From assembly GCA_016234445.1 (NCBI GenBank), contig JACRBT010000004.1, forward strand, positions 186,001-250,000: a stretch of 64,000 bases of DNA, written 5' to 3'. Numbering within the stretch: the stretch's first letter is position 1; the number at the start of each line of letters is the position of its first letter. Shown piece after piece: positions 4,041 to 55,711 of the stretch. Position numbers and translations under genes: made by a program. This DNA comes from Chloroflexota bacterium. Its GTDB lineage: Bacteria > Chloroflexota > Dehalococcoidia > Tepidiformales > Tepidiformaceae. Under the pieces are notes generated by a model. It saw only the letters and a program-made list of their open reading frames with translations, was not told where the DNA came from and searched no databases.

Positions 4041-4115
4041 GCCCCCGTAGCTCAGCGGATAGAGCAGTGGTTTCCTAAACCATGTGCGCAGGTTCGATTC
4101 CCGCCGGGGGTACCA
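4041..4115 (+). tRNA. tRNA-Arg (anticodon CCT)
   Basis: Full cloverleaf: acceptor GCCCCCG/CGGGGGT (G-U at the first pair), D-arm with GCTCAGCGGATAGAGC, anticodon stem GTGGT/ACCAT around loop TTCCTAA (anticodon CCT, reads AGG), T-loop TTCGATT, discriminator A and an encoded CCA. The T-stem GCAGG/CCCGC has one A-C mismatch in its middle pair. No other tRNA is seen in the window. Confidence 0.95.
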
Positions 4116-15994: not shown

Positions 15995-18900
15995 ATGAAG
16001 CCCGCAAGCGTGCTCATCATCGGCTCCGGTCCCATCGTCATCGGGCAGGCTGCCGAGTTCGACTACGCCGGAACCCAGGCCTGCAAGGCCATGCGGGAAG
16101 AGGGCGTCCGCAGCATCCTCGTGAACTCGAACCCGGCGACGATCATGACCGACCTCGGTGTCGCCGATGCCGTCTACATCGAACCGCTGACGGTGCCGGT
16201 GCTGGAGCGGATCATCGCCCGGGAGCGGCCGGAGGGGCTCTTGCCGACGCTCGGCGGCCAGACCGGGCTCAACCTGGCGGTCGAACTTGCCGCCGCGGGA
16301 ATCCTGGAGAAGTACAACGTCCGGCTGCTCGGCACGCCGCTCGAAACCATCCGCCGGGCGGAGGACAGGGAGCTCTTCCGGGACATGCTGGCGAAGCTTG
16401 GCGAACCCGTCCTGGAGAGCCACATCTGCCACACGCTGGCGGAATGCGAGGCGGCGGCGGAGTCGATCGGGCTCCCGGTCGTGATTCGCCCGGCCTACAC
16501 GCTCGGCGGTACCGGCGGCGGCATGGCCTTCACCACGGAACAACTGCGGACGGTCGCCGAGAGCGGCCTGGCCGCCAGCCCGATCACGCAGGTACTCGTC
16601 GAAAAGAACCTCCTAGGCTGGAAGGAAGTCGAATACGAGGTGATGCGCGACGGCGCCGGGAACTGCATCACCATCTGCAACATGGAGAACCTGGACCCGA
16701 TGGGCGTCCACACGGGCGACTCTATCGTCGTCGCGCCGTCGCAGACCCTGAGCGACAAGGACTACCAGATGCTCCGGTCGGCGAGCCTACGGATCATCAG
16801 CGAGCTTGGCATCGAAGGCGGCTGCAACGTCCAGTTCTCGCTCGCGCCCCGCAAGGACGTCCGCGACTGGGAGGGCGACGCCGACCGCCCGCTGCCCTAC
16901 TACGTGATCGAAGTGAACCCGCGCGTGTCGCGCTCCTCGGCGCTGGCATCGAAGGCAACCGGCTACCCGATCGCCCGCGTGGCCACGAAGATCGCCTGCG
17001 GGAAGACACTGGACCAGATCCCGAACGCCGTCACCGGGAAAACCACCGCGGCCTTCGAGCCGGCGCTGGACTACTGCGTCGTCAAGATCCCTCGCTGGCC
17101 GTTCGACAAGTTCGCCCTCGGCGACCGGACCCTCGGCACCCAGATGAAGGCGACAGGCGAGGTCATGGCGATCGAGCGCTCGTTCGAGGCCGCGCTCAAC
17201 AAGGCGGTGCGGTCGCTGGAAATCGGCCGCCGAAGCCTCCTCTGGGAGCGGCCGGAATGGCGCGCCGGCGGCGAGTTCCCGCTCCACGCGACGGACGAAC
17301 GGCTCTGGGCGCTGATGGCGGTACTACGCCGTGGCGCCGCAGTGATGGACGTTGCCCGGCAGACGGGCGTCGACCCCTGGTTCCTCGAACGCCTCCAGTC
17401 GATCATCGCGATGGAGAAGCGGCTGCTGGCCGAGCCGCTGCACCCGGAGCTGCTGCGGGCGGCCAAGCGGCTGGCCTTCAGCGACGAAATGGTGGCGCAG
17501 CTGGCCGACCTCCTCCCCGACCAGGTACGGGAGCGCCGCCACCAGTGGGGCATCACGCCCGTCTACAAGATGGTGGACACCTGCGCCGCCGAGTTCGACG
17601 CGGAAACCGCCTACTTCTACAGCACCTACGAATCGGAGAACGAGGCCGAGGCTGTCCCCGGGCCGGCGGCGGTTGTCATCGGCAGCGGGCCGATCCGGAT
17701 CGGCCAGGGAATCGAGTTCGACTACGCGAGCGTGCACGCGGCCTGGGCGCTCCAGGCGGCAGGTCTGCGGGCCGTGATGGTGAACTCGAACCCGGAGACC
17801 GTGTCCACCGACTTCGACACCAGCGACCGTCTCTACTTCGAGCCGCTCGACGAAGAGGCTGTCCGCGACATCATCGAGAACGAGCAGGGCAACGAAGCGG
17901 AACCGCCAGCGAGCATCGTCCAGTTCGGCGGGCAGACGGCCATCAGCCTGGCGGAGCCGCTACGGCGGGCATCGCTGCCAATCATCGGGTCGAGTGCGGA
18001 AGCCATCGACACGGCCGAGGACCGCCACCTCTTCGAGCGCTTCCTCCAGGACAGGGGGATCCCCCAGCCACCAGGAGCCGCTGTCACAACCCTGGAAGCG
18101 GCGATGAAGATCGCTCAGCAGATCGGCTACCCGGTCCTCGTGCGGCCGTCCTACGTGCTCGGGGGCCGGGCGATGGAGATCGTCCAGAACGCGAACGAGC
18201 TGGTTACCTTCGTCGCCCAGGCGGCGGAGGTGGCGCAGGGCAAGCCCATCCTCATCGACAAGTATCTCGAAGGGCGGGAAGTGGAGGTCGACGCCATCTG
18301 CGACGGCGAGACCGTCCTCATCCCCGGGATCATGGAGCACATCGAGCGCGCCGGCGTCCATTCCGGGGACTCGATGGCGGTCTACCCGCCGCCACACCTC
18401 GACCCGGCCGAACGCGAAGTCCTTCGGGACTACACGGAGCGGATCGTCCTGGGGATGGGCGCCATTGGGCTGACGAACATCCAGTACGTCGTCCTGCCCC
18501 ACGAGCCCGGAGGGGAGCCGCAGGTCTACGTGCTGGAGGTGAACCCGCGGGCGAGCCGGACCGTGCCCTTCCTCTCGAAGGTAACCGGCGTCCCGATGGT
18601 GCAACTCGCCGTGAACGCGATGCTCGGGAAGAAGCTGAAGGACCAGGGCTACGAAGGCGGGCTCTGGCCTGAGCGGAACCTGGTGGCGATCAAGGCCCCG
18701 GTCTTTTCGATGTCGAAGCTGGTGGACGTGGACACCCACCTCGGCCCGGAGATGAAGAGCACGGGCGAGGTGATGGGCATCGACCGGAACTTCGAAGGGG
18801 CGCTGGCAAAGGCCCTGCTCGCGTCGGACATGGCCCTGAAACCGAACGCGGCCATCCTCCTCAGCCTGAGCGACAAAGACAAGGCGGACGCACCGGCGCT

Positions 18901-19246
18901 CATCCGCCAGCTTGCGGGCGCGGGCTACCGGTTGTACGCCACCGAGGGAACCAGCCGGATGATCCAGGCCCTCGGGCTGCCGGTCACTTCGGTGACGAAG
19001 GTGCTGACCGGCGACCACCCGAACGTCGTCGACGTCATCCGCGACGGGACGGTCCAGTGCGTCATCAACACACCCGAGGGGCGCCTGACGGGCACGCTGA
19101 GGGACGGGTTCTACATTCGCCGGGCGGCGGCCGAGAAGCGCATCCCCTGTTTCACCTCGATCGACACGGCAAGGGCAGCCGTCGAAGCCCTGAGCCGCCA
19201 GGCCGAGTACGACATTGCCACCCTCGCGGAGTACGTGAACGGGTGA
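15995..19246 (+). CDS. carB: Carbamoyl-phosphate synthase large subunit
   Basis: 1083 residues, normal length. Two homologous ATP-grasp halves begin with [17 protein letters not shown] and, about 550 residues on, [17 protein letters not shown]. Each half has the EVNPRxSRSS/T ATP site, and an MGS-like allosteric domain ends the chain ([18 protein letters not shown]). It forms carbamoyl phosphate from bicarbonate, ammonia from CarA and two ATP. It feeds PyrB, and arginine synthesis if present. It is separated from the preceding membrane gene by 82 nt. Confidence 0.98.
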
Positions 19247-43067: not shown

Positions 43068-44153
43068 ATGCCGGGTCCGACACGGGCTTCCATCACGCGG
43101 CTCCTGTTGCCGCTCGCCGCGAGCGTGATCGTGCTCGCCGGGGTGAAGCAGGCGGCCGGCATCCTCAACCCGCTTCTGCTCGCGCTCTTCATCCTCCTCG
43201 TGCTGGTGCCGATGTTGCGCTGGCTGCGCGAGCGGGGGCTGCCGGGCTGGCTGGCGGTGACAACGGTCGCCAGCTTCGTTCTCCTCGTCGGGGCGGTGGG
43301 GGTCACCTACACCGTCGTCACCGCGAAGGAGATCTCCGACAAGCTGCCGGAATACAAGGACCAGCTCGCGGAACGGCAGGAGACGGTCGAGAACTGGCTG
43401 GAAGAGCAGGGCGTGGACGTCGCCGCCCTCAAAGAGGACAACAACCTCGACGGTAACGACGCCCTCCAGTTCGCCGTGGACTTCGCGCTCGGGATGGCAT
43501 CGACGTTGACGAGCACGGTGCTGATGGGCGTGGTGCTCGTGTACCTCCTCGCGGAGTCGGCGGGGTACTCGAAACGGTTCCACCGGGCCATCGGTGAGCA
43601 GGCCCCGTTCCACCGGGCGCTGGAAGACTTCGCCCGCGACCTGGGGAAGTTCATGAACCTCCGGGCGTGGCTGGGCCTGATCGCCGCGATCTTCGACGCG
43701 ATCCTGCTGTGGGCGCTGGGGGTGGACTTCGCCGTCTTCTGGGGGGTCCTGTCCTTCGCGATGAGCTTCATCCCGAACGTTGGGTTCATCATCGCCCTGG
43801 TGCCCCCGACGGTCCTCGCCTTCATCGAATTCGGCGTGGTGAAGTCGCTGGTGGTGCTGGGCGGATACATCGCCATCAACTCTGGGATCGACTACATCGT
43901 CGCCCCCCGCATGCTGGGCCGGGGGCTGAACCTGTCGCCGCTCGTGACCTTCCTCGCGGTCGTCTTCTGGGCATGGATCCTCGGGGCGCCGGGGGCGTTC
44001 CTGGCGCTGCCGCTCACCCTCGCGATCAAGAAGCTGGTGTTGGAACAGTTCGAAGAGACGCGCTGGATCGCAGCGGTCATCGGCACCGACGACGGGGCCC
44101 GGCCTGCCGCCCTCGAACCAGCCGGCGAGGCCCCGGCGGACGCGGCGGGCTGA
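43068..44153 (+). CDS. AI-2E family transporter (PerM/YdiK-like)
   Basis: 361 residues with the family layout: two or three N-terminal membrane helices, a soluble helical segment (about residues 90-135), then five or more helices with VDFAVFWGVLSFAMSFIPNVG and the C-terminal LSPLVTFLAVVFWAWILG-type signature. Members export signals or ions; for relatives the substrate is often unknown. The start ATG is 7 nt after a -10 box. Convergent with the NUDIX gene. Confidence 0.9.
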   Translation: MPGPTRASITRLLLPLAASVIVLAGVKQAAGILNPLLLALFILLVLVPMLRWLRERGLPGWLAVTTVASFVLLVGAVGVTYTVVTAKEISDKLPEYKDQLAERQETVENWLEEQGVDVAALKEDNNLDGNDALQFAVDFALGMASTLTSTVLMGVVLVYLLAESAGYSKRFHRAIGEQAPFHRALEDFARDLGKFMNLRAWLGLIAAIFDAILLWALGVDFAVFWGVLSFAMSFIPNVGFIIALVPPTVLAFIEFGVVKSLVVLGGYIAINSGIDYIVAPRMLGRGLNLSPLVTFLAVVFWAWILGAPGAFLALPLTLAIKKLVLEQFEETRWIAAVIGTDDGARPAALEPAGEAPADAAG

Positions 44154-44171
44154 CCTGCCCCGGCCTGGAGC

Positions 44172-44741
44172 TCAGGGCGCGGCCGAGTTCCAGACGTCGA
44201 GGAAGTTGGTGAGCATCCGCGCCGTCGCGCCCCAGATCAGGTCCTCCTGCCACTGGTAAGAGGGGAAGACGTACTCGCGGCCATTGACGAGCCGCCGGTC
44301 GGGGATGAGCGTCGCCGGCTGCAGGAGGTGAGGGATGGGCACTTCCAGCAGGTAGGCGACCTCGTCGTCGCTGAAGCGCCAGTCGTAGGGGTACTGCTGG
44401 AGCCAGCCGACGAACGGCGTCACCCGGAAGTTGCTGACGGTCACCATGTCGTCGAGGCGGCCGAGGATCTCCACGTGCCCGGGGAGGACGCCGATCTCCT
44501 CGTGGGTTTCGCGCAGCGCCGTGAAGACAAGGTCGGGGTCGCCGGGGTCCCTGCCACCGCCGGGGAAGCTGATCTGGCCCTTGTGATCCTGGACGCGGTC
44601 CGTGCGCTTCTGAAAGACGATGTGCTGCTCGCCGGCGTGGTCGTAGATAAGGACAAGGACGGCGGCGGCCATCTTCCCGGGGTCGACTTCGATGACCTGG
44701 GGTTCGTAGGCCTCAAGTGCCCGGCGGAGCGAGTCTTTCAC
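44172..44741 (-). CDS. NUDIX hydrolase (CoA pyrophosphatase-like)
   Basis: 189 residues. NUDIX box in FPGGGRDPGDPDLVFTALRE followed by THEEIGV (REx2EE present). The YDHAGEQHIVFQKRT and FVGWLQQYPYDW stretches resemble CoaX-type YeaB/NUDT7 CoA diphosphatases. It likely hydrolyses CoA or acyl-CoA to phosphopantetheine and 3',5'-ADP. GTG at 44741 overlaps the upstream stop (GTGA), implying coupling. Confidence 0.88.
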   Translation of the reverse strand: MKDSLRRALEAYEPQVIEVDPGKMAAAVLVLIYDHAGEQHIVFQKRTDRVQDHKGQISFPGGGRDPGDPDLVFTALRETHEEIGVLPGHVEILGRLDDMVTVSNFRVTPFVGWLQQYPYDWRFSDDEVAYLLEVPIPHLLQPATLIPDRRLVNGREYVFPSYQWQEDLIWGATARMLTNFLDVWNSAAP

Positions 44742-45181
44742 CCAAACATGATATGACGGCGGCGGGTGGATTCGCGCAGTTCGTCCCAGATTTCCTCGTT
44801 GATGGCGGCCGCTTCCTCGCCGGGGAGAGTCTCGACGAGCGCCTGGACCTCGACAAGCATGCGGCGGAGCCGGTCGTTCTCGGCCTGGAGCTTCGAAACG
44901 TGGAGGTCGGCGTTCGGATTGGCGGCGATCTCCTGGAGCATCTTGCTGCGAATGGCGCCGGTGGGCATCGCCCGGGAGGCGCGGCGAAAGAGCGCGACCA
45001 TGGCGTCGTTCTCTTCGGCGAAGCGAGCGGCGGCGCGGTCGTACTCCTGGGCGAGCATGCTCAGGATGCCGGCGACGCTGCCGATGTTCTGCTGGGCGAA
45101 GGGCGTCTGGAGCTCCGGCGCGAGCTTGAGCATCAGGACGCCGGCCATGCCCATCATCACCTGCGGCGGTTGCGGCCTCAT
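44738..45181 (-). CDS. Helical hypothetical protein of the phosphotransferase operon
   Basis: 147 residues, entirely helical-looking, with a probable coiled coil in the C-terminal half (KLQAENDRLRRMLVEVQALVE). No family recognised. Its ATG overlaps the phosphotransferase stop (ATGA) and its stop overlaps the NUDIX start (GTGA), giving a tight three-gene unit of phosphotransferase, this protein and NUDIX. It may be a regulatory or scaffolding partner of the phosphotransferase. Confidence 0.7.
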   Translation of the reverse strand: MRPQPPQVMMGMAGVLMLKLAPELQTPFAQQNIGSVAGILSMLAQEYDRAAARFAEENDAMVALFRRASRAMPTGAIRSKMLQEIAANPNADLHVSKLQAENDRLRRMLVEVQALVETLPGEEAAAINEEIWDELRESTRRRHIMFG

Positions 45182-46197
45182 GCGCCCCTCCCGAGGCTCC
45201 GCAGGATGACCTCTTCCTGGAAGTTGAGGAGCCAGTAGGAGGTGGTGACCATGATCAGCTCCTGGGTGCGCCCGTCGGCATAGGACCGCGCGCCGGTCAG
45301 CCAGATTCCCTGCCCCTTGACCCCGCTGAAGACGTCCCACCAGCGGAGGGCCTTGCGATCGACCTTCATCCCGCTGGCCTTTTCGTAGACAGCGATGGCT
45401 TCGTCCTGGGCGACGATCCCGCCCTTCTTGCCGTCGCGCCCCCATTCCCAGACTTCGTGGCAGGACCAGGCGAGGTCCTCCATTGGGTCACCGAGGTGCG
45501 CCATCTCCCAGTCCAGGACTCCGTGGATGCCTTCGTCTGTATAGAGGAAGTTGCCGACGCGGTAGTCCCCATGGACGACCACCACCTTCTTTGCCGGCGG
45601 AGGCGGGTTCGCCCGAAGCCAGCGGATGGCGGCCCGGGTGATGGGGTTGGGGCTCTGCTCGTTCTTGTCGATCATGCCTTCCCAGTAGGCGAGCTCGCGC
45701 TTCCAGCATTCGTTGGCCGCGGGCACGGGGACGGCGGACTCGATCGGCGAGCCGCGCCAGTCGAAGCGCTGGATCTCGCCGAGGATCTCGTAGAAGCGCC
45801 GGGCGAGCATCGGCCGGGCGGCGTCGTAGCGGGGTTCGAGGATGACCCGCGGGTTGGAGTCGCAGCCGACGATGCGGTCCATGATGAAAAAGGCCGCGCC
45901 GAGGTGTTGCGGGTCCTGTTCGAGCCAGCGCATGCCGGGGACCGGGACACTGGTGCCGGCGTAGGCACGATAGAAGGCGTACTCAACTTCCCGTTCGGAT
46001 TCCACCAGCGACGCGGGCGGGTCGATGCGGACGATGAACGGGGATGTCTTCGGCTGCCCGGCTTCCGTCCACTCGGCGTCGTACATCCAGGTCTCCCGGG
46101 AAGCGCCGCCGGGGATGCGAAGGAGGTTCGTGACCTTGAGTCCGCTTGCCCCGGGGAGCCGGGGTTCCATGTAGCGTTCGAGGGCTGTCGCATCCAC
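45178..46197 (-). CDS. Phosphotransferase family protein (APH/choline kinase fold, ACAD10-like)
   Basis: 339 residues with the APH kinase fold: GGASRETWMYDAEW, the catalytic VVHGDYRVGNFL (HxDxxxxN) and GVLDWEMAHLGDPMEDLAW. This subgroup is commonly found beside acyl-CoA dehydrogenases and is thought to phosphorylate a hydroxyacyl-CoA-type intermediate rather than antibiotics. Nearby genes here are a helical protein and a CoA NUDIX hydrolase, which agrees with a CoA-linked role (inference). Confidence 0.87.
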   Translation of the reverse strand: MDATALERYMEPRLPGASGLKVTNLLRIPGGASRETWMYDAEWTEAGQPKTSPFIVRIDPPASLVESEREVEYAFYRAYAGTSVPVPGMRWLEQDPQHLGAAFFIMDRIVGCDSNPRVILEPRYDAARPMLARRFYEILGEIQRFDWRGSPIESAVPVPAANECWKRELAYWEGMIDKNEQSPNPITRAAIRWLRANPPPPAKKVVVVHGDYRVGNFLYTDEGIHGVLDWEMAHLGDPMEDLAWSCHEVWEWGRDGKKGGIVAQDEAIAVYEKASGMKVDRKALRWWDVFSGVKGQGIWLTGARSYADGRTQELIMVTTSYWLLNFQEEVILRSLGRGA

Positions 46198-46245
46198 CGA
46201 GCGGCATCGTGTCGTAGCCCGGACGGAGTGTCAAACGACGGCCGG

Positions 46246-47766
46246 TTATTCCAGCGCCGCGACCAGCGCAAGCGTGAGGAGGTCATAGCCAATTGCGAGG
46301 GGGTGGACGTCCGGGGTGGCGTCCAGCATGTGGGTGACGGCCCCCGCGCGGCCCTGGATCACCCCGAATCCGTCGGCGTAGCGGGCGCCGTTCTCCGCGG
46401 CGATCCCCCTCGCAAGGGCGTTGACCCGTTGGACCACCGCGTCGGTCTCCGCTTCGAGGCCAACGTCCGCCCCGAAGCCGATGCTGAAGGGGTTGTACAT
46501 GCCCAGGAAGACCACGGTCGCGCCCGGGGCGGCCTCCTTGACGCGCCGGAAGATGACCCGGAGGTTCCCCTCGTAGCCGGCGAGCGTCAGTTCGAGGCGC
46601 TCCTGGCAGGCAGGGGTGGTGACGGTCTCGCTGCAATCGGGGGAGTAGAGGTGGCCGAGAAGGTCGTTCGCCCCGATGTCGATGGTGACGTAGGCGACCC
46701 CGGTGGCCTTCATAAAGGCGATGGCGTCGGAGAGCTGACCGTCGCGGATGAGCCCACCCGAGGTCTGCCCGGAGACGCCGAAGTTGCGAAGGCCGTACTC
46801 CTTCCCGTCGCGAAGCTGGAGCTGGTTGTGGAAGCGGGAAACGTACCCATCGCGGGCGGCATCGACGCCCACGTTGGCCGCGAGCGAGTCCCCGAGGGCG
46901 ACGTAGTAGGGCGCGCTGCCGTGTTCGAGCGCATCGACGACGCCGGGGGGCACCCTTGCGGCCGGTGGCTTGAGCCGGTCCCCGAGCGCGGCGACATTCT
47001 CCGAGACGGCGGTCATCAGTGTGCCGAGGGTGACGAGTTCGCCGCCGCCCGTGAGCCCGACCACCACCACCCGGCCTTCACCGATGGCCACGGACTGGAC
47101 CTCGGCGCCGTGGGCAGCCAGCGTCTTGTTTACGTCGGTAGCCGATTCGATGAGGGTTTCGACGGCGCTGCGGGCGAACCCGGGGAGGGTGAAGTTCCCC
47201 ATGTGCACCCGGTCGACGCGGAAGTCGACCTCACCCGCGTTCACGCTCGCGCTGATGGCGCCGTCGGCCGTGACCCCTCCCTTCTTGAACAGCGCCCTGA
47301 ACTTGATCGTCCCCTGCCCGCCATCCTTGCCGTCGACAACCTCCAGGTCGACCCGGCGGAAGGGGTTGCTGTCGCTGCCGGCGAGCGTGTCCTGGAGGAC
47401 GGCGCCGAGTTCTGCGACGGTCATTTCGACGCGGAAGCCACCGGAGCCGTCGGCGGCGTCGAGCTTCGCCGTCGCGGATTCGAGGGCGACCGGGTCGGCG
47501 GCGTCGACGGGGCCGTCGTTGTTCGCGAGGGCGCTGAGGAGGCTGAGCGTGCTGTAGCCGCCGTAGAGGATGGAGCCGACGATGAGGACGCCGAAGGCCG
47601 CGGTGATCCACGTGAGGAACCGGCGGCCCCAGATGAACCCATACACGACGGCCGCGACCACAAGGAGGAAGAGGAACAGCGTCGGGATTTCGCCGACGGT
47701 GAAGAGCCCGAGGGGCATCACGGTGATGACGACCAGGATGCCAAGGACGATGACGAGGGCTCTCAT
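46246..47766 (-). CDS. Membrane-anchored SGNH/GDSL hydrolase with a lipid-binding-like middle domain
   Basis: 506 residues. Three membrane helices at the N-terminus (about 1-20, 28-46 and 52-78), then residues 110-240, which resemble DUF2993/LmeA-type (TULIP-like) lipid-binding proteins (TLPGFARSAVETLIESATDVNK, split here for length: the conserved helix is near 192-213). A C-terminal SGNH esterase follows, with GDS at 292-294, GAND at 365-368 and DVHP near the end. It probably deacylates or binds an envelope lipid or glycan. SD GGAGG before the ATG. Confidence 0.85.
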   Translation of the reverse strand: MRALVIVLGILVVITVMPLGLFTVGEIPTLFLFLLVVAAVVYGFIWGRRFLTWITAAFGVLIVGSILYGGYSTLSLLSALANNDGPVDAADPVALESATAKLDAADGSGGFRVEMTVAELGAVLQDTLAGSDSNPFRRVDLEVVDGKDGGQGTIKFRALFKKGGVTADGAISASVNAGEVDFRVDRVHMGNFTLPGFARSAVETLIESATDVNKTLAAHGAEVQSVAIGEGRVVVVGLTGGGELVTLGTLMTAVSENVAALGDRLKPPAARVPPGVVDALEHGSAPYYVALGDSLAANVGVDAARDGYVSRFHNQLQLRDGKEYGLRNFGVSGQTSGGLIRDGQLSDAIAFMKATGVAYVTIDIGANDLLGHLYSPDCSETVTTPACQERLELTLAGYEGNLRVIFRRVKEAAPGATVVFLGMYNPFSIGFGADVGLEAETDAVVQRVNALARGIAAENGARYADGFGVIQGRAGAVTHMLDATPDVHPLAIGYDLLTLALVAALE

Positions 47767-47800
47767 GGGCAGCCTCCGGGTTCCGGATGGGCACGGCGTC

Positions 47801-47841
47801 CCGGGCGCATTGTACGGGCGCGGTAGCCAGGCGCGCATGCG
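47801..47841. repeat. 41-bp direct repeat, copy A
   Basis: Matches 50437-50477 at 34 of 41 positions without gaps. The conserved blocks are CCGGGCGCATT, TACG, CGCGGT and GGCGCGCATGCG. On the minus strand it carries TACAAT (47809-47814), which is probably the -10 box of the SGNH hydrolase gene, 42 nt before its ATG. Confidence 0.6.
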
Positions 47842-48082
47842 CGGGGGGCGGGAGAGCGTCAGCGGACCTCCGCGTTCGTCACCCCAGGAACCGAGCCTGA
47901 TTCGACACGATGTCTCTTTACCTTGGCTGTCTTTTGCGGGGCGATCCCGCTGTAACGGGTGAGCGCCCCGGCACACAGAAGGTGCAGTGATGGCCATCAC
48001 CCTCCAAAGCCCCGTCGCGAAACACAGCCGCGGGGAACGCACCGGGTGGAGCTTCTCCATTCCCCAACTCTCAGGAGACTTC
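47842..48082. other. Leader region of the beta-propeller gene
   Basis: No gene. It includes TCTTTACCTTGG (about 47912-47923), close to the repeats at 25701-25726, and a hairpin GCGGG-GCGAT-CCCGC near 47938-47952. The promoter of the propeller gene should lie here, but no housekeeping match is clear. Confidence 0.4.
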
Positions 48083-49189
48083 ATGTTCACGGCACTCTCA
48101 ATTCGCCGCCGGACCTTCGCGGGGCTACTGCTTCTCGCCGGGGCCCTCGCGGTCCTCACCTCCCAGGCCGGGAGCGCCTCGGCGAAACCCCTCGCCTCCG
48201 GGGCGGTCTACACCCTTAGCAACGCCGCTACCGGGAACCAGGTCATCGCTTTCCAGCGTGCCGACGACGGGACACTCACCCCGGCCGGATCCTTCGACAC
48301 CGGCGGAACCGGTAACGGGGGGAACCTGGGCTCGCAGGGCGCGCTTGCATTGAGCCGGAACGGCCGCTACATCGTTGCGGTGAACGCGGGAAGCGACAGT
48401 GTCTCGCTCCTGGCGGTCCGGCCGTCAGGGCTCGAACTGCTCGACACCGCCGCAGCGCAGGGCACAACCCCCATCAGCGTGACGATTCACGGTGACATCG
48501 TCTACGTGGTCAACGACGGCTCGGACAACATCGCCGGCTTCCGCATCGACGACGACAGCCTTCACGCCATTCCCGGCTCCGTGCAGACGCTCGGCGCGGG
48601 GGCAGCACCGGGCCAGATCAGCTTCGATAGCCGTGGCCGCACGTTGGTCGTCAGCGTGAAGAACACCAACCAGCTCGTCACCTTCCAGGTCGACGACGAA
48701 GGGCGAGCCGGCGCCGGTCAAGCGACCGCAAGCGCGGCTCCGGTGCCGTTCGGATTCGCGATCGACCACAAGAACCACGCCATCGTTTCGGAAGCGCCCG
48801 GTAGCGACCTCTCTTCCTACCAGCTGGCGAAAGACGGCACCGTGACCCTGATCGATGGCCCGGTGGGGAACGGACAGGCCGCAGCCTGCTGGGTCGCGCT
48901 CAGCAAGGACGACCGCTACGCCTTCTCGGCCAACGCCGGTAACTCCACGATCTCGACCTACCGGGTCGAAGGCGACGGCAGCCTCACGCTGCTGTTCCCG
49001 GTCGCGGGCAATACCATCGGTGGCCCGCTGGACCTCGCGGTCAGCAACGACGGCCACTTCCTCTACGCGATCAGCCGCGCGTCGCACACGATCAGCGAAT
49101 TCGCTATCGGCGACGACGGCTCTCTTGCCTTCATTGGTTCGACTTCCGACCTCCCGACGGCCTCGGCTTCCGGCCTCGTCGCGAAGTAG
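48083..49189 (+). CDS. Secreted lactonase-family beta-propeller (probable Tat substrate)
   Basis: 368 residues. The signal peptide has RRRTF before a hydrophobic core (residues 8-28) and ASA at 32-34, which fits Tat export. The rest is a seven-bladed propeller of the 6-phosphogluconolactonase/YVTN type with repeats ending in ISTYRVEGDGSLT and FAIGDDGSLAFIG. The start ATG has AGGAG 5 nt upstream. It ends at a strong terminator and is followed by an ECF sigma/anti-sigma pair, which may control it. Confidence 0.85.
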   Translation: MFTALSIRRRTFAGLLLLAGALAVLTSQAGSASAKPLASGAVYTLSNAATGNQVIAFQRADDGTLTPAGSFDTGGTGNGGNLGSQGALALSRNGRYIVAVNAGSDSVSLLAVRPSGLELLDTAAAQGTTPISVTIHGDIVYVVNDGSDNIAGFRIDDDSLHAIPGSVQTLGAGAAPGQISFDSRGRTLVVSVKNTNQLVTFQVDDEGRAGAGQATASAAPVPFGFAIDHKNHAIVSEAPGSDLSSYQLAKDGTVTLIDGPVGNGQAAACWVALSKDDRYAFSANAGNSTISTYRVEGDGSLTLLFPVAGNTIGGPLDLAVSNDGHFLYAISRASHTISEFAIGDDGSLAFIGSTSDLPTASASGLVAK

Positions 49190-49211
49190 ATCCGGGACCA
49201 TCAACCACCTG

Positions 49212-49244
49212 GAAGGGAGGAGGGCGAGTCGCCTTCCTCCCTTC
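49212..49244 (+). terminator. Intrinsic terminator after the beta-propeller gene
   Basis: GAAGGGAGGA (49212-49221) pairs with TCCTCCCTTC (49235-49244); GGCGA/TCGCC pairs inside (49223-49233). It is 23 nt after the stop. Confidence 0.75.
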
Positions 49245-49432
49245 TGGCACGCCACTCAGAGGCGAAGGGGACTGTTGCAGCCACCGCTCCTCGCTGCAAG
49301 CAACCACAGGAGGGACGTCACGGACGTCCTCAACCGGCTCAATTTGCTGCGCCGCGGGAGCGCGCGGTCTCGCCGTCGCCGCGAGACGGTCCTCGCGCCC
49401 CCCGCTTTCGACGTTCATGATTGCGAGAGGCC

Positions 49433-50095
49433 ATGACCTTTTCACACTCTCCGGGGTCGAAGTTAGAAACCGACGATGCGGGGCTGCTGGCTCGCCTGCG
49501 GCGGCGTGACGAGGCGGCCTTCGCCGAGCTTGTGGACCGCTACCACGGCCAGATGGTCCGCGTTGCGATGTCGTTCGTTCGCGACCGGCAGGTGGCCGAG
49601 GAGGTGGTCCAGGACGCATGGCTTGGTCTCCTCAAGGGCCTCGACCGGTTCGAAGGGCGCTCTTCGATCAGGACGTGGCTCTTTGCCATTCTCACAAACG
49701 TTGCCAGGACCCGCGGCCGCCGCGAAAACCGGTCGGTGAGCTTGTCGTCGCTTGCCCCCGGCCCAGACGAAGATCCCTCATCCGTGGATCCCTCGCGGTT
49801 CTTCCCGAGCGGTCACGATCATGCCGGTCACTGGACGTCGGTCCCCAACGACTGGGAGGCGGTTCCGGAAGAGCGTCTGCTCTCGGCTGAGACTCGCGCC
49901 TGTATCGACTCGGCAATCGCATCGTTGCCGGAAATGCAGCGCGCCGCCATCGAATTGCGCGACGTTCTTGGCTGGTCCGCCGGCGACGTCTGTAACACAC
50001 TCCAGATCACGGAGACTAACCAACGTGTCCTTCTTCACCGCGCTCGCTCGAAAGTTCGCCGAAGCCTGGAAGCGTACCTCGCCGCTGGAGAGTGA
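49433..50095 (+). CDS. ECF sigma factor
   Basis: 220 residues. Region 2: DRYHGQMVRVAMSFV, AEEVVQDAWLGLLKG and RTWLFAILTNVARTRGRR. Region 4: LPEMQRAAIELRDVLGWS, then VCNTLQITETNQRVLLHRAR. The linker between them is long (about 65 residues). It would direct RNA polymerase to promoters of an envelope or stress response. The ATG at 49433 has GAGAGG close by; a TTG at 49421 is an alternative. The coding region looks less GC-rich by eye than its neighbours, which may mark transfer. Confidence 0.93.
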   Translation: MTFSHSPGSKLETDDAGLLARLRRRDEAAFAELVDRYHGQMVRVAMSFVRDRQVAEEVVQDAWLGLLKGLDRFEGRSSIRTWLFAILTNVARTRGRRENRSVSLSSLAPGPDEDPSSVDPSRFFPSGHDHAGHWTSVPNDWEAVPEERLLSAETRACIDSAIASLPEMQRAAIELRDVLGWSAGDVCNTLQITETNQRVLLHRARSKVRRSLEAYLAAGE

Positions 50096-50366
50096 CGGAT
50101 CCGCCGAACCGGCGCTGACCTGCCATGAACTTGTCGAACTCGTCACCGCGTACATCGAAGGTGCGCTCCCGGATGGCGACCGCCAGCGGTTCGAGGCGCA
50201 CGTCGATGTCTGCCCGGGCTGCGACGCCTACCTTCACCAGATGCGCCAGACAATTCAGCTCGCCGGCACGCTGCGGGAAGAAGATGTTGCGAGCGATGCG
50301 AAGGAGACGCTGCTGGCCGCTTTCCGCGATTGGAAGGCGTCCGAATCGGCGGAAACGTCCGACTGA
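50025..50366 (+). CDS. Zinc-finger anti-sigma factor (soluble)
   Basis: 113 residues. ZAS domain: C33-H34 in TCHELVEL, then H59-x3-C63-x2-C66 (AHVDVCPGC). No membrane helix follows, so it is a cytoplasmic anti-sigma. The GTG at 50025 lies 71 nt inside the sigma factor gene and is preceded by GGAGA at 50011. The long overlap implies tight co-expression. A redox or zinc signal that releases the ECF factor is the family expectation. Confidence 0.85.
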   Translation: MSFFTALARKFAEAWKRTSPLESDGSAEPALTCHELVELVTAYIEGALPDGDRQRFEAHVDVCPGCDAYLHQMRQTIQLAGTLREEDVASDAKETLLAAFRDWKASESAETSD

Positions 50367-50408
50367 TCCGCCTTTACGGGTCCGTCGCGAACTTCCGGGT
50401 GCGGCCGC

Positions 50409-50431
50409 GGAAACTGCGCTCGGCGGTTTCC
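50409..50431. terminator. Hairpin between anti-sigma and hisB (convergent)
   Basis: GGAAAC (50409-50414) and GTTTCC (50426-50431) around 11 nt. Weak 6-bp stem; possible bidirectional terminator between convergent genes. Confidence 0.35.
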
Positions 50432-50436
50432 CCGTA

Positions 50437-50477
50437 CCGGGCGCATTCTACGTTCGCGGTCAACCGGCGCGCATGCG
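50437..50477. repeat. 41-bp direct repeat, copy B
   Basis: Partner of the copy at 47801. The two lie in the same orientation on either side of the propeller/ECF module. On the minus strand it carries TAGAAT (50445-50450), which faces into the anti-sigma gene. Confidence 0.6.
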
Positions 50478-50511
50478 GGGTGAGGCCCGGGAGACGGGGC
50501 AGAGAAACGCC

Positions 50512-51105
50512 CTACAACGTGCCCTTGGTGCTTGGGATTTCGCCGCCGCGGCGGGGGTCGATGCGGCAGGCGGCGTCGAGGGCGCGGGCAAGGGCCTTGA
50601 AGCAGGCCTCGGCCTTGTGGTGGTCGTTCGTCCCCGAGAGTGAGCGCACGTGGACGGCGGCCTTGAGCGTGAACGCGAACGACTCCAGGAAGTGGTCCAG
50701 GAGGTCCGGGGGCATGCCGCCGACTTCGCGGCCGAGCAGGCGCAGGTCCAGCTGCGCATAAGGCCGGCCGCTGAGGTCGACGGCGGCGAAGGCGAGGGCT
50801 TCGTCCAGCGGCATATAAGCGGAGCCGGCGCGGACGATGCCCGCCTTGTCCCCGAGGGCGCGCGCGAACGCCTCGCCCAGCGCGATGCCACAGTCCTCGA
50901 CCGTGTGATGCTGGTCGATGTGGAGATCACCGGTGGCGCGGATCTCGATGTCGAAGACGCCGTGCTTGGCGATGTGGCTGAGCATGTGGTCGAAGAAGCC
51001 GATTCCGGTCTCGGTCACGAACTTCCCGGTGCCGTCCAGGTTCACGGTGACGGAGATCTTCGTCTCGGCGGTGTTGCGTTCGACGGTGGCGATGCGAGCG
51101 GTCAT
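50512..51105 (-). CDS. hisB: Imidazoleglycerol-phosphate dehydratase
   Basis: 197 residues, monofunctional. The two manganese-binding motifs are present: FFDHMLSHIAKH and QHHTVEDCGIALG in the first half, and NDHHKAEACFKALARAL in the second. ATG overlaps the hisC stop (ATGA). It is the last gene of the his operon in the window. Confidence 0.97.
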   Translation of the reverse strand: MTARIATVERNTAETKISVTVNLDGTGKFVTETGIGFFDHMLSHIAKHGVFDIEIRATGDLHIDQHHTVEDCGIALGEAFARALGDKAGIVRAGSAYMPLDEALAFAAVDLSGRPYAQLDLRLLGREVGGMPPDLLDHFLESFAFTLKAAVHVRSLSGTNDHHKAEACFKALARALDAACRIDPRRGGEIPSTKGTL

Positions 51106-52181
51106 GCGTCCTCCAGGTTGCGAAGCGCGGCCAGCAGCCGGTCCGTGTCCTCCGGGCGGCCGGCGCTGATCCGGATGTAGTTGGCGAGGTCGGGCCTATC
51201 GTAGTAGCGGACGAGGACACCCTGCTTGCGGAGGGCGTCGCGGACGTCCTTCGCCCGGCGGCCGAGCACCCGGAAGAGGACGAAGTTCGCCTCCGAGGGG
51301 ACCGGTTCGAGCCAGCCGAGTTCGGCGATCAGGCGCACCATCCGCTCGCGTTCGGCGACGATGGCGGCGACCGTCTCCCGGATGACGCCGCGGTGGGCGA
51401 TGGCCGTCCGGGCGGCAACGTCGGCGGCGACGTTGACGTTGTATGGCTGCTTGATCGCCATCATCCGCGTGGCGAGTTCGGGGTCGCTGAGCGAATAGCC
51501 GACGCGCAGGCCCGCGAGGCCCGCCCACTTGCTGAACGTCCGGAGGATGACGAGGTTGCGGTAGCGGGCCAACAGCGGCGTGAGGCTGTGGCCGGAGAAC
51601 TCGACGTAGGCCTCGTCGATGACGACGAGCGCGGGCAGCTCGCAGACGGCCGCGGCCTCGGCTTCGGAGAGCGAGGTGCCCGTCGGGTTGTTCGGCGAAG
51701 TGAGGAAAACGACGCGCGCGCCCGCTTCCACCGCCTTACGGATGCCCGGGATGTCCGGGGCGAACCCCTCGAGCCGGGGCACGTCGATCACCCGGGCGCC
51801 GCAGATCTTCGCGAGGAAGCCGTACATCCCGAAGGTGGGGGTCACGTTCACCACCGCCTTCGGCATGACGAGGCGAAGGACGATGTCGATGAGGTCGTCC
51901 GCGCCCGTGCCGCCGACCACCTGCTCCGGCCTTACACCGGCATACCCGGCGATCGCCTCGCGGAGTGCGGCCTGGCCCGGGTCGGGGTAGATGTGGAGGT
52001 CGGCGTGGGTGATCGCTTCGACGACTTCCGGGATGGGGCCGTAAAGGTTCTCGTTCGCGTCGAGCTTCACCAGCCGCTCGACGGGCAGGCCGATCTCGCG
52101 CGCGAGCACGTCAAGGGGCTGGACCGGCACATATTCCTCGAGCTGGTCGAGGTCCGGGCGAAGGAGCGTCAGCGGGTCCAT
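51102..52181 (-). CDS. hisC: Histidinol-phosphate aminotransferase
   Basis: 359 residues with KLDANENLYGP, GGTGADDLIDIVLRL, FLTSPNNPTG, VVIDEAYVEFSG and the PLP-lysine in LRTFSKWAGLAGLRVGY. It transfers the amino group from glutamate to imidazole-acetol phosphate. The start at 52181 is 6 nt after a TAAAGT -10 box inside the his operon; the AGGGAG gap could also serve as SD. Confidence 0.95.
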   Translation of the reverse strand: MDPLTLLRPDLDQLEEYVPVQPLDVLAREIGLPVERLVKLDANENLYGPIPEVVEAITHADLHIYPDPGQAALREAIAGYAGVRPEQVVGGTGADDLIDIVLRLVMPKAVVNVTPTFGMYGFLAKICGARVIDVPRLEGFAPDIPGIRKAVEAGARVVFLTSPNNPTGTSLSEAEAAAVCELPALVVIDEAYVEFSGHSLTPLLARYRNLVILRTFSKWAGLAGLRVGYSLSDPELATRMMAIKQPYNVNVAADVAARTAIAHRGVIRETVAAIVAERERMVRLIAELGWLEPVPSEANFVLFRVLGRRAKDVRDALRKQGVLVRYYDRPDLANYIRISAGRPEDTDRLLAALRNLEDA

Positions 52182-52187
52182 CTCCCT

Positions 52188-52193
52188 ACTTTA
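52188..52193 (-). promoter_or_regulatory. -10 box before hisC (possible leaderless internal start)
   Basis: Minus-strand TAAAGT, then AGGGAG and the ATG at 52181. It lies in the 43-nt gap after hisD. Confidence 0.45.
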
Positions 52194-52224
52194 CCGTAGG
52201 AGCGCGGTACGGCCCGGCGGGACC

Positions 52225-53550
52225 TCAGCGGCCCTGGATGCGGCGCTCGACCGAGGCTGCGTGGGCGGTGAGCCCTTCCGCCCGGGCGATGATGCTGGCG
52301 GCGCGGGCGAGCTCCTCCGTGATCTCGTCCGGCAGGTTGACCACGCTCGTCGTCTTGATGAAGTCGCTCACCCCAAGCGGCGAACTCCAGCGGGCGCTGC
52401 CTCCGGTCGGCATCGTGTGACTGGGGCCGGCCGTGTAGTCGCCGACAGCTTCGGGCGAACCCTCGCCGAGAAAGAGGCCGCCGGCGTTGCGCACCTTCGC
52501 CGCGTAGGCCATGGGCTGTTCCACGACCAGGCAGAGGTGCTCGGGCGCGTAGTAATTCGCGAGTTCGATGGCGTGGTCGATGTCGTTGACGAGGATACAG
52601 CCGCCGCGGTTGTCCAGGGCTGCCCGCGCGATCTTCGCCCGTTCGAGCTTTCCCAGCTGGCGTTCGATGCAGCGGCTGACCTCGTCCGCGAGGAAGTGCG
52701 ACGGCGTCAGGAGGATGGGGCTCGCCAGGGCGTCGTGCTCCGCCTGGGCGAGGAGGTCGGCGGCGACCAGTTCCGGGTTCGCGCTTTCGTCGGCGATGAT
52801 CACCGTCTCCGTGGGGCCAAAGATGGAGTCGATGCCGACGTCGCCGAAGACCTGCTTCTTGGCGATGGTCACGAAGAGGCCGCCAGGCCCGCAGATCTTG
52901 TCGACGCGGGGGATGGATTCGGTGCCGTAGGCGAAGGCGGCCACGCCTTGGGCGCCGCCCGCCCGGAAGACGCCGTCAACGCCGGCAATGTCGGCCGCGA
53001 CCAGCTTCACCGGCGGCACCGAGCCGTCGGGGAGGATCGGGCTCGTCATGTAGAGTTCGTCGACGCCGGCGACCCGCGCGGGGATGGCGCACATGAGGAC
53101 CGTGCTCGGGAGCGGGGCGCGCGTGCCCGGGATGTAGAGGCCAACCCGCTGGATGGCGCGCGTGAGCTGGCCGAGGCCGCTCTGGTTGAAGTCGAACCAG
53201 GCGCCGCGCATCTGCTGTTCGTGATAGCGGCGGATGCGCCCGGCGGCGAACTTGAGGGCGTCGACGATCTCGCCGTCCACGGAGTTGTAGGCGGCGCGGA
53301 TCTCTGCTTCGGAGACACGCAGGTCGCCGGCCTGGGCGTTGTCGAACCGCGTGTTGTAGAAACGGACCGCGTTGTCGCCGTCTTCGCGGATGTCGCGGAT
53401 GACCCGGCGGACGACCTCTTCAGGCGCGAGTTCCTGCCCGAAGGCGCGGAAGATCGTCTCCCGTACGTCCATCGGGAGCTCGTCGGTTTCGAGTGGTTTG
53501 CGCGAAAGGAGGAGGCGGCGGCCCTCCTCGGCGTTCCTGATTATCCGCAT
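52225..53550 (-). CDS. hisD: Histidinol dehydrogenase
   Basis: 441 residues; full family pattern with [50 protein letters not shown] (Zn/His site) and [16 protein letters not shown]. It oxidises histidinol to histidine with two NAD. It overlaps the upstream phospholipase-like gene by 10 nt and is separated from hisC by 43 nt. Confidence 0.97.
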
Positions 53551-54299
53551 GCCAGGTACCTTTCCACCGCTTTGCGGGCGGCATCCGTCGATCGCTGGAC
53601 GAACGCGTTAACCTCGGCGCTGGTCACATGGGCGATCGTCTCGTCGAGCAGTTCGGGGAGGTTGTCGAGGAAGGAAGTCAGCGTCTCGCCCTCTTCGAGG
53701 CCGCCGTAGCGCAGGTGATTCGAAATCATCCCGCGCATGCGGTCCCAGTCCATCGTGCGGGCGGCGACGTCGACGGTCACCTTCCGCCAGCGTTCGAGCG
53801 TCTCACATTCGACGAACCCCGCTTCGATGTTCTCGACCGTGCAGGCCAGTGCCCCGAGCAGGTCCTGCTTCAGTTCCGGGTCGTTGCCATAGGCGCGGTC
53901 GAGGTCGAACTGGAGGAGGCGGTCCATGACGTTGGCGCGGATGGCCCCACCGAGCGCATCGTGGCGGGCGAAGAAGGGGCGGTAGATTCCCGTTATGTAC
54001 TGCTCGTCCATCACCAGGTGGCTGATGTAGCCGGCGACGAAGGCGCGGGTCGCCGGGTTCAGGTCCTCAGGCCGCCCGAGGCCGGCGTGCTCGGCCAGGA
54101 ACGTGCTCACCGAGTCCTGGTGCCCGGGTTCGTTCAAGTCGAAAAAGTGGGTGCTGAAGCGGTCCTGGCGCGTGAGCACGCGGATGTCCGGGGTGGTGGC
54201 GCCGAGCAGGTACGTGCCCGGGCAGTCCCCGAGCGACGCTTCGGCCACGCCGCGGGCAATGTCGCGGGCGAGCACCATGTGGAGCGTTATTGGAGGCAT
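53541..54299 (-). CDS. Zinc-dependent phospholipase C-like protein inside the his operon
   Basis: 252 residues, mostly helical. LGATTPDIR, THFFDLNEPG and FVAGYISHLVMDEQY (HxxxD pair) fit the zinc-dependent phospholipase C/S1-P1-like metal site found in uncharacterised bacterial proteins. No signal peptide is seen, so it would be cytoplasmic. The ATG overlaps the hisG stop (TGATG) and the stop overlaps hisD, so it is fully embedded in the operon. A role in histidine synthesis (for example a phosphatase) is possible because no histidinol-phosphatase is recognisable here, but this is speculation. Confidence 0.75.
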   Translation of the reverse strand: MPPITLHMVLARDIARGVAEASLGDCPGTYLLGATTPDIRVLTRQDRFSTHFFDLNEPGHQDSVSTFLAEHAGLGRPEDLNPATRAFVAGYISHLVMDEQYITGIYRPFFARHDALGGAIRANVMDRLLQFDLDRAYGNDPELKQDLLGALACTVENIEAGFVECETLERWRKVTVDVAARTMDWDRMRGMISNHLRYGGLEEGETLTSFLDNLPELLDETIAHVTSAEVNAFVQRSTDAARKAVERYLACG

Positions 54300-55711
54300 C
54301 AGACGGCGGGGACGGCGGCAGCCGCGCGCTGGAACCGCCGGATGAGGTCGGCGAGGAGGGCGGTCTGCTTCGTCACCGGGTCCCGGCGGACGATGACGCA
54401 GGCCGTCGACTCCATGAACGGGTCGAGCATCTTGAGCCCGTTGGCGCGGATGCTCGTGCCGGTTTCGGTGCCTTCGACGAGGAAGTCGGCATCTTCGGGG
54501 ACAAAGCCCTCGCTGGCGCCGGCGACGGGGATGATCGTGGTGTCCTGGAGATGGTGGTCGCGGGCGAAGCGTTCGGCCGTCGCGGGGAATTCGCTGGCGA
54601 TGCGCACTCGGCGGCCCAGGTGGTTCCAGATCGTGACTGCTTCCGCGGTCGTCTCCGCGGGGAAGGCGGCGTCGACGACGGGGCCGATGCGGTAGCGGTT
54701 GGTGCCCAGGTCGACCGCCATCTCCACGGGCGAGCCGGGGAACTTGCTGAGATGCTCGTGGAGGAGGTCGCGCCCGCTGATGGCGATGTCGAACATGCCC
54801 ATCGCGACGAGCTGGGGCATGTCCTGGGGGCGGACGACCTTGACCGCGAGCCCCGGGATGCCGCTGATCGGGCGGCGGACGTAGGACTGCTCGTTGTAAC
54901 CCTCGAATTCGAGCCCGGCCTCGCGAAGGGCCGACGGGGTGTGGCGCTGGGCGTGGCCATCGGGCAGTGCGAGCCGGAGCGTCGCCGGGTCCGGGCGGCT
55001 CGTGGTGAGCGCGACTCCCTCCTGGGAGGCCGGGAACGAAAGCACGGGCTGGTCGGGGATGAACAGCGGTGCGAGGTTGCCGAGGATGGGCGCGAGGTCG
55101 CGAGCGGCGAGGGCGTCGGCGTTGGCGATGAGGGCGATGCCGCCGGAAAAGACGCGATGGAGGGGGACGAGCCCCTTCGCCCGGACGGCGTCCGCGTCCC
55201 GGGCCGGCATCAGGACGAGGTCGGCGTCTTCGGGCGGGTAGGCGTCGGCCGAGCCGTAGACGGTGATGAGCCTGTACGCCTGGATACGGAGGTGGACGGA
55301 GGCGAGGTCCGCGAGGTTCGGGAGCTCCGAGACGATTCGGGCGCCGGCGAGCGCCCGCCGCGCCGGGACCTGGCCCTCGGCGAGCCCGGATTCGGGCGCG
55401 GCACAGAGCCAGACTTCGTGGCGCGGGCCTGGCAGCGAGCCGATCCGGACGACGCGCTGGAGCGGGAAGCGGACCTGGAGCTCGCTGAGCCAGATGTCGC
55501 CGCAGATCCCGAGGTCGTAGTTCCCGAGCGCCACCTGGATCGGGATGTCCTTTTCGCGGAAGACACGGAGGGTGAGTCCGGCGTCGTCGAGGACCGAGCG
55601 GAGCTGACGGGAGGACGGCTCATAGCCGCTGGTGGCGATCCCGGCGCCTTCGAGCATGGCCCCGACCGCCGGGCGCGGATCGCCGGTTGGGAGCGCGAAC
55701 TTGACGGTCAT
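54299..55711 (-). CDS. hisG: ATP phosphoribosyltransferase, tandem two-copy HisG
   Basis: 470 residues, where short-form HisG has about 210 and long-form about 290. Copy 1 covers residues 1-240 (KFALPTGDP, YDLGICGDIW, PEDADLVLMPARDADAVRAKGL at 160-181). Copy 2 covers 243-470 (LRLALPDGH, FDIAISGRD, PEDADFLVEGTETGTSI at 405-421). The two C-terminal loops align without gaps, but copy 1 has RDADA where copy 2 has the PRPP-loop ETGTS. Copy 1 therefore looks catalytically dead. The reaction is ATP plus PRPP to phosphoribosyl-ATP, with HisZ from the upstream overlapping gene. The ATG at 55711 overlaps the hisZ stop (ATGA). Confidence 0.9.
   Translation of the reverse strand: MTVKFALPTGDPRPAVGAMLEGAGIATSGYEPSSRQLRSVLDDAGLTLRVFREKDIPIQVALGNYDLGICGDIWLSELQVRFPLQRVVRIGSLPGPRHEVWLCAAPESGLAEGQVPARRALAGARIVSELPNLADLASVHLRIQAYRLITVYGSADAYPPEDADLVLMPARDADAVRAKGLVPLHRVFSGGIALIANADALAARDLAPILGNLAPLFIPDQPVLSFPASQEGVALTTSRPDPATLRLALPDGHAQRHTPSALREAGLEFEGYNEQSYVRRPISGIPGLAVKVVRPQDMPQLVAMGMFDIAISGRDLLHEHLSKFPGSPVEMAVDLGTNRYRIGPVVDAAFPAETTAEAVTIWNHLGRRVRIASEFPATAERFARDHHLQDTTIIPVAGASEGFVPEDADFLVEGTETGTSIRANGLKMLDPFMESTACVIVRRDPVTKQTALLADLIRRFQRAAAAVPAV

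Follow-up and report, generated by a model that had tools for sequence, protein, structure and literature searches.

A promoter-like direct repeat around a beta-propeller/ECF sigma/anti-sigma group beside hisB: possibly a neighbour's duplicated promoter segment

What does it mean when two similar segments of intergenic DNA lie, in the same orientation, on either side of a group of bacterial genes? The question is raised by a locus within a 64,000-nucleotide stretch of DNA from a Chloroflexota bacterium (the window), where such a repeat flanks genes for a beta-propeller protein, an ECF sigma factor and an anti-sigma factor, between an SGNH hydrolase gene and hisB. The first-pass annotation had read the arrangement as insertion of a cassette that left duplicated or att-like ends, with duplicated promoters as an alternative. 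In our best reading, the repeat is a promoter-like segment that would be in use for the SGNH gene and orphaned beside hisB. The features of the locus are listed here, the edges being those of a segment that appears to be extra in comparison with relatives.

46198-46245, minus strand: spacer before the APH gene, with TTTGACA, read by eye; putative far edge of the extra segment
46246-47766, minus strand: SGNH/GDSL hydrolase with N-terminal extension, 506 aa (Pfam PF13472, E 3.1e-23)
47797-47844, minus strand: repeat copy 1, with a -10-like TACAAT at 47809-47814, some 50 nt ahead of the SGNH start codon
48083-49189, plus strand: seven-bladed beta-propeller, lactonase family (PF10282, E 1.5e-28)
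49212-49244, no strand assigned: strong hairpin 3' of the propeller gene, near-perfect, 16 bp (shuffle z -3.4)
49433-50095, plus strand: ECF sigma factor (PF04542, E 1.4e-16; PF08281, E 1.2e-10)
50025-50366, plus strand: zf-HC2 (zinc-finger) anti-sigma factor (PF13490, E 1.9e-11), start codon uncertain
50433-50480, minus strand: repeat copy 2, in the spacer that separates anti-sigma from hisB (convergent genes), with a -10-like TAGAAT that no evident gene follows
50512-51105, minus strand: hisB (PF00475); near edge of the extra segment

Aligned without gaps and in the same orientation, positions 47801-47841 and 50437-50477 are identical at 34 of 41 positions, just as the first-pass annotation had it, and the match extends to 39 of 48 (81%) at 47797-47844 and 50433-50480. 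A 12-bp block, GGCGCGCATGCG, is intact in both copies. When the 64-kb window was compared with itself, the pair ranked third among same-strand ungapped matches at E 7e-6, the best match in eight shuffled control windows having E 0.014. Two pairs score above it: one (16017/17676) sits inside the frame 15995-19246, which we take to be carB (carbamoyl phosphate synthase large subunit), a gene whose known internal duplication makes an internal direct repeat expected, and the other is 23937/26205. Both repeat-bearing spacers have a GC content of about 69-70%, which is what speaks for chance similarity of GC-rich spacers as the origin of the pair. That explanation is refuted, its probability being practically negligible, by the self-comparison and by dinucleotide shuffles, of which 0 of 500 reach the observed spacer-against-spacer score (30, with a shuffle maximum of 15; 21 and 13, respectively, under a harsher mismatch penalty). 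A duplication longer than 48 bp was considered and rejected. A gapped alignment of the spacers looks colinear and scores 73, against a maximum of 40 in 500 shuffles; the score of each flank alone is reached in 89 and 158 of 500 shuffles, and that of anchored extension beyond the 48 bp in 5 of 150 upstream and 52 of 150 downstream, which is weak or at chance level.

The pair is also confined to this locus. A sequence model derived from it scores the two copies at E 5e-14 and 2e-13, the next match in the 3.54-Mb genome having E 0.18; model and pattern searches of the whole genome gave no third copy, so that in the model search neither the sigma gene nor the propeller gene is preceded by one. Where the first-pass annotation had named many copies genome-wide as the outcome that would speak against an insertion, the genome thus holds two only. 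The right part of the repeat, with up to three mismatches, has five extra places in the genome, each with three mismatches, compared with four for the reversed control. Under stricter filters, eight of 60 relatives have one model match each at E 0.02-0.1 per genome, which is chance level, and no copy was found at relatives' sigma genes. The 16-base core of the repeat occurs in 16 stretches of viral contigs, which we put down to chance, the pattern being short and the collection very large. An equally strong repeat pair bracketing genes was found at none of five same-family sigma loci, three SGNH loci and four propeller-sigma loci; weaker pairs flank the G016 sigma gene (L085; 29-38 nt, 71-76%, five of 11 families shown) and one surrounds the propeller gene at L145 (31 nt, 71%), all of which are taken for chance.

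What kind of element, then, is the repeat? The left part of both copies carries, on the minus strand, the -10-like motif CGTA(C/G)AATGCG (CGTASAATGCG), which includes the TA(C/G)AAT that had been noticed at first pass. It occurs seven times in the genome, against once for the reversed control, and the wider GGGCGCATTNTACG, with at most one mismatch, nine times against once. Of the five CGTASAATGCG sites that fall outside the window, four are followed after 24-39 nt by an ATG or GTG with a same-direction frame of 108-254 aa (frames clipped at locus ends). At two of the four, another register has a longer frame that starts further downstream, and the assignments are therefore not all certain; the fifth site (L126) has no start codon within the 260 nt scanned. 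Variant CGTASAATCCG sites are followed by an ATG at 49 nt (L004, 374 aa) and a GTG at 71 nt (L006, 136 aa). In the window, the motif of copy 1 stands 50 nt upstream of the SGNH ATG, and no frame longer than 73 aa begins within 260 nt of copy 2. It is this -10-like element before start codons, also at unrelated genes, that characterises the repeat as promoter-like, as a pattern of sequence. A -35 element at 16-18 bp was recognised in neither copy, and by eye the other CGTASAATGCG sites share none. Two further candidates were rejected: a sigma-70 promoter by consensus, of which no site was found in 45900-50700, and a folded RNA element, both copies folding no better than shuffles on either strand and 44000-54500 containing no Rfam match.

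The hisB loci of relatives bear on what has been inserted. A hisB match was found in 53 of 60 relatives, and 2.9-7.7 kb after hisB were read in 18 (17 of the same family, one of the same class). The order hisB, APH, NUDIX is present in 11 of these loci, hisB followed by NUDIX in two and something else in five; APH is missing after hisB in seven, including relative G022, whose hisB is the most similar (86%). Within the stretches read, none of the 18 has an SGNH, sigma, anti-sigma or propeller gene after hisB. Judged by the majority of the loci, hisB-APH would be the ancestral order. With hisB-APH as the empty site, and since the APH gene follows SGNH in the window, the extra segment would span 46246-50511 (4.27 kb) and include SGNH. 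Its far edge is suggested by a TTGAC element, seen by eye in nine of the 11 hisB-APH gaps (61-190 bp between match ends), to which the TTTGACA at 46198-46245 before the window's APH gene is similar. The repeats bracket only the hisB-side 2.7 kb of this segment, and no repeat copy was seen in the 11 gaps.

Composition points in the same direction for part of the segment. GC content is 63.8% for the sigma gene, 63.5% for the anti-sigma gene and 64.0% for both together, compared with 68.3% for the window, and sigma alone and the two together fall into the lowest 0.8% and 0.2% of equal-sized windows, respectively. Their GC at third codon positions (GC3) is 0.74-0.75; the values for six genes on the flanks (APH, NUDIX, Zn-PLC-like, hisB, hisC and hisD) are 0.87-0.92. 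The by-eye impression that these two genes are less GC-rich than their neighbours is thus borne out by computation. The propeller gene (66.9%) and SGNH (68.6%) are near the window mean and not unusual, SGNH resembling the host genome in both GC and GC3. The proposed insertion therefore stands as an event, because the bracketed genes are absent from the 18 relatives' loci and the sigma and anti-sigma genes are GC-poor, but its boundaries were drawn wrongly: SGNH is extra as well.

The sigma gene product has regions 2 and 4 and an adjacent zf-HC2 protein, all with Pfam scores above cut-offs, as is typical of an ECF sigma factor with a zinc-finger anti-sigma factor; the NCBIfam superfamily sigma70-ECF is also above its cut-off for the sigma factor, whereas no NCBIfam model exceeds its cut-off for the propeller or the anti-sigma factor, and SGNH matches none at all. 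By eye, the propeller N-terminus is signal-peptide-like, and a membrane segment was not seen in the anti-sigma factor. A comparison with phage families gave nothing for SGNH or the anti-sigma factor, two families of sigma factors for the sigma factor and, for the propeller, a single family whose function is unknown (E 2.7e-10). The N-terminal part of SGNH, about 280 aa, is without a Pfam match. The hairpin at 49212-49244, which lacks a T run, is possibly a terminator or a stabilising stem. Upstream of the propeller gene, at 47887-47914 on the plus strand, GGAACC is followed 16 bases later by GATGTC, an arrangement that looks ECF-promoter-like by eye.

Where else do these genes occur? In a search whose reach is confined to close relatives, full-length SGNH relatives are limited to a Dehalococcoidia MAG (50%) and a pair of MAGs from Acidimicrobiia (44% and 45%); the 60 relatives have none, their four partial matches lying on contigs that do not carry hisB. 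The three SGNH loci (5.4-11 kb) contain no sigma, anti-sigma or propeller gene and no repeat pair bracketing SGNH. Just after the Dehalococcoidia SGNH relative (L082:4832-4969) lies a 30-bp tandem unit, with three good copies and then decayed ones. The sigma factor has matches at E 1e-15 or better in seven same-family genomes, and the five best loci (45-67%) were read, G008 (31%) and G012 (34%) being left out. All five have an anti-sigma gene next to sigma; none has a propeller gene beside it in the stretch read, including the closest sigmas (67% and 58%), and the group may thus have been put together locally instead of arriving as a unit. A tree of 10 sequences, made to trace the source of the sigma gene, has three of seven inner branches well supported, with deep forks unresolved.

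The propeller has one short partial match in the 60 relatives, whereas a phylum-wide sample of 300 other genomes contains 24 that carry one (34-45%). Reading one place each in 20 of these 24, we found a sigma/anti-sigma pair adjacent to the propeller gene in four (L144-L146 and L158), in two families and two gene orders, a count that comes without a control for chance adjacency. Three of the four have the order sigma, anti-sigma, propeller and belong to one genus; the fourth is divergent and from another family. The pair was not found in the other 16 stretches, four of them under 7 kb, and two other genomes of the three-locus genus are without it in the 12 kb read. From these neighbourhoods, the propeller and the sigma/anti-sigma pair can plausibly travel together.

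How might a repeat pair have come to bracket such a group? If the repeats were attachment sites, or target duplications, of a mobile element that brought the module, their direct orientation, their size and their placement at both module ends would be explained. We find this quite unlikely, and the att-like ends proposed at first pass found no support in the comparison: the bracket is smaller than the extra segment, the empty site hisB-APH shows no repeat copy (none in the 11 gaps, chance-level matches in the 60 relatives), the two copies are not identical, and the genome has no further copies. The 11 genes in 44.2-54.3 kb that were scanned by Pfam (44738-45445 being without a family match) include neither an integrase nor a transposase, and the sole tRNA in the window, at 4041-4115, is not near the module. 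Conceivably, the SGNH, propeller, sigma and anti-sigma genes came in together from a donor that already had the repeat pair. The absence of the whole 4.27 kb from the 18 hisB loci and the restriction of full-length SGNH relatives to three MAGs in the close-relative search would fit; yet those three SGNH loci lack both the companion genes and a bracketing pair, and the composition of SGNH is host-like whereas that of sigma is not, which leaves a single arrival unlikely.

Alternatively, both copies might be kept for a regulator, possibly the encoded ECF sigma factor, one driving SGNH and the other running antisense into the anti-sigma gene. The -10-like elements and the 12-bp block are intact in both copies, and the -10 begins with CGTA, a start common to many ECF promoters. 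We give this little credence, since mismatches in the repeat show no significant clustering (24% of random placements cluster as much), no copy stands before the sigma or propeller gene or at relatives' sigma genes, and the other CGTASAATGCG sites lack a common -35 by eye. Its more specific form, in which copies 1 and 2 would be matched promoters of this sigma factor, copy 1 coupling SGNH to it and copy 2 serving as an antisense feedback brake through the anti-sigma and sigma genes, is very improbable. Copy 2 could also be the promoter remnant of a lost gene, for example a second SGNH, that the module replaced, and it is indeed promoter-like, without an evident gene and right after hisB. The sequence after copy 2 shows no sign of homology to the SGNH start, however, and downstream extension is at chance level, which makes this a slim prospect.

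The reading that we favour, believed and doubted in about equal measure, is that a promoter segment was duplicated when the module entered between hisB and SGNH, copy 1 being the SGNH promoter and copy 2 an orphan. The duplicated promoters of the first-pass annotation fit better than att-like ends, given the -10-like motif and the position of copy 1 before SGNH. We envision a scenario in which hisB-APH was the ancestral state and the 4.27-kb segment 46246-50511 was gained between the two genes, probably not all at once. SGNH, together with its promoter, would have come to lie after hisB; the propeller/ECF sigma/anti-sigma group would then have entered between them, leaving one promoter copy on each side, and copy 2 would be the diverged orphan beside hisB. 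Divergence of the copies to 81% suggests that the event is probably old. Because no other genome of this genus was among the relatives returned, we infer the order of events and the mechanism; promoter activity is likewise predicted from sequence. A repair-type or replicative process would account for the duplication, rather than site-specific integration. The intermediate order hisB, repeat, SGNH was seen in no genome searched.

A gene group that, on entering a conserved locus, leaves its neighbour's promoter behind as a stranded copy would be an ordinary event, of which this locus is a modest example. The more useful lead is the grouping of propeller, sigma and anti-sigma, which recurs in two other families of the phylum and suggests a secreted beta-propeller that may be controlled by, or signal to, an ECF sigma factor with a zinc-finger anti-sigma factor.

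Among known systems, attachment sites and target-site duplications share with the locus an inserted group that is flanked by direct repeats, and differ from it in that here there is no integrase, tRNA or empty-site copy and the copies are non-identical. Promoter duplication, or insertion with flanking duplication, in an intergenic region is a general kind of event; here, too, promoter-like direct copies surround genes missing from relatives, although the mechanism is not visible and the copies have diverged. ECF sigma factors with zf-HC2 anti-sigma factors are encoded by adjacent, overlapping genes, as they are here, and such pairs are also present in five same-family relatives; what sets this one apart is the adjoining lactonase-type propeller, an arrangement absent from those five loci and shared with four of the 20 loci read across the phylum.
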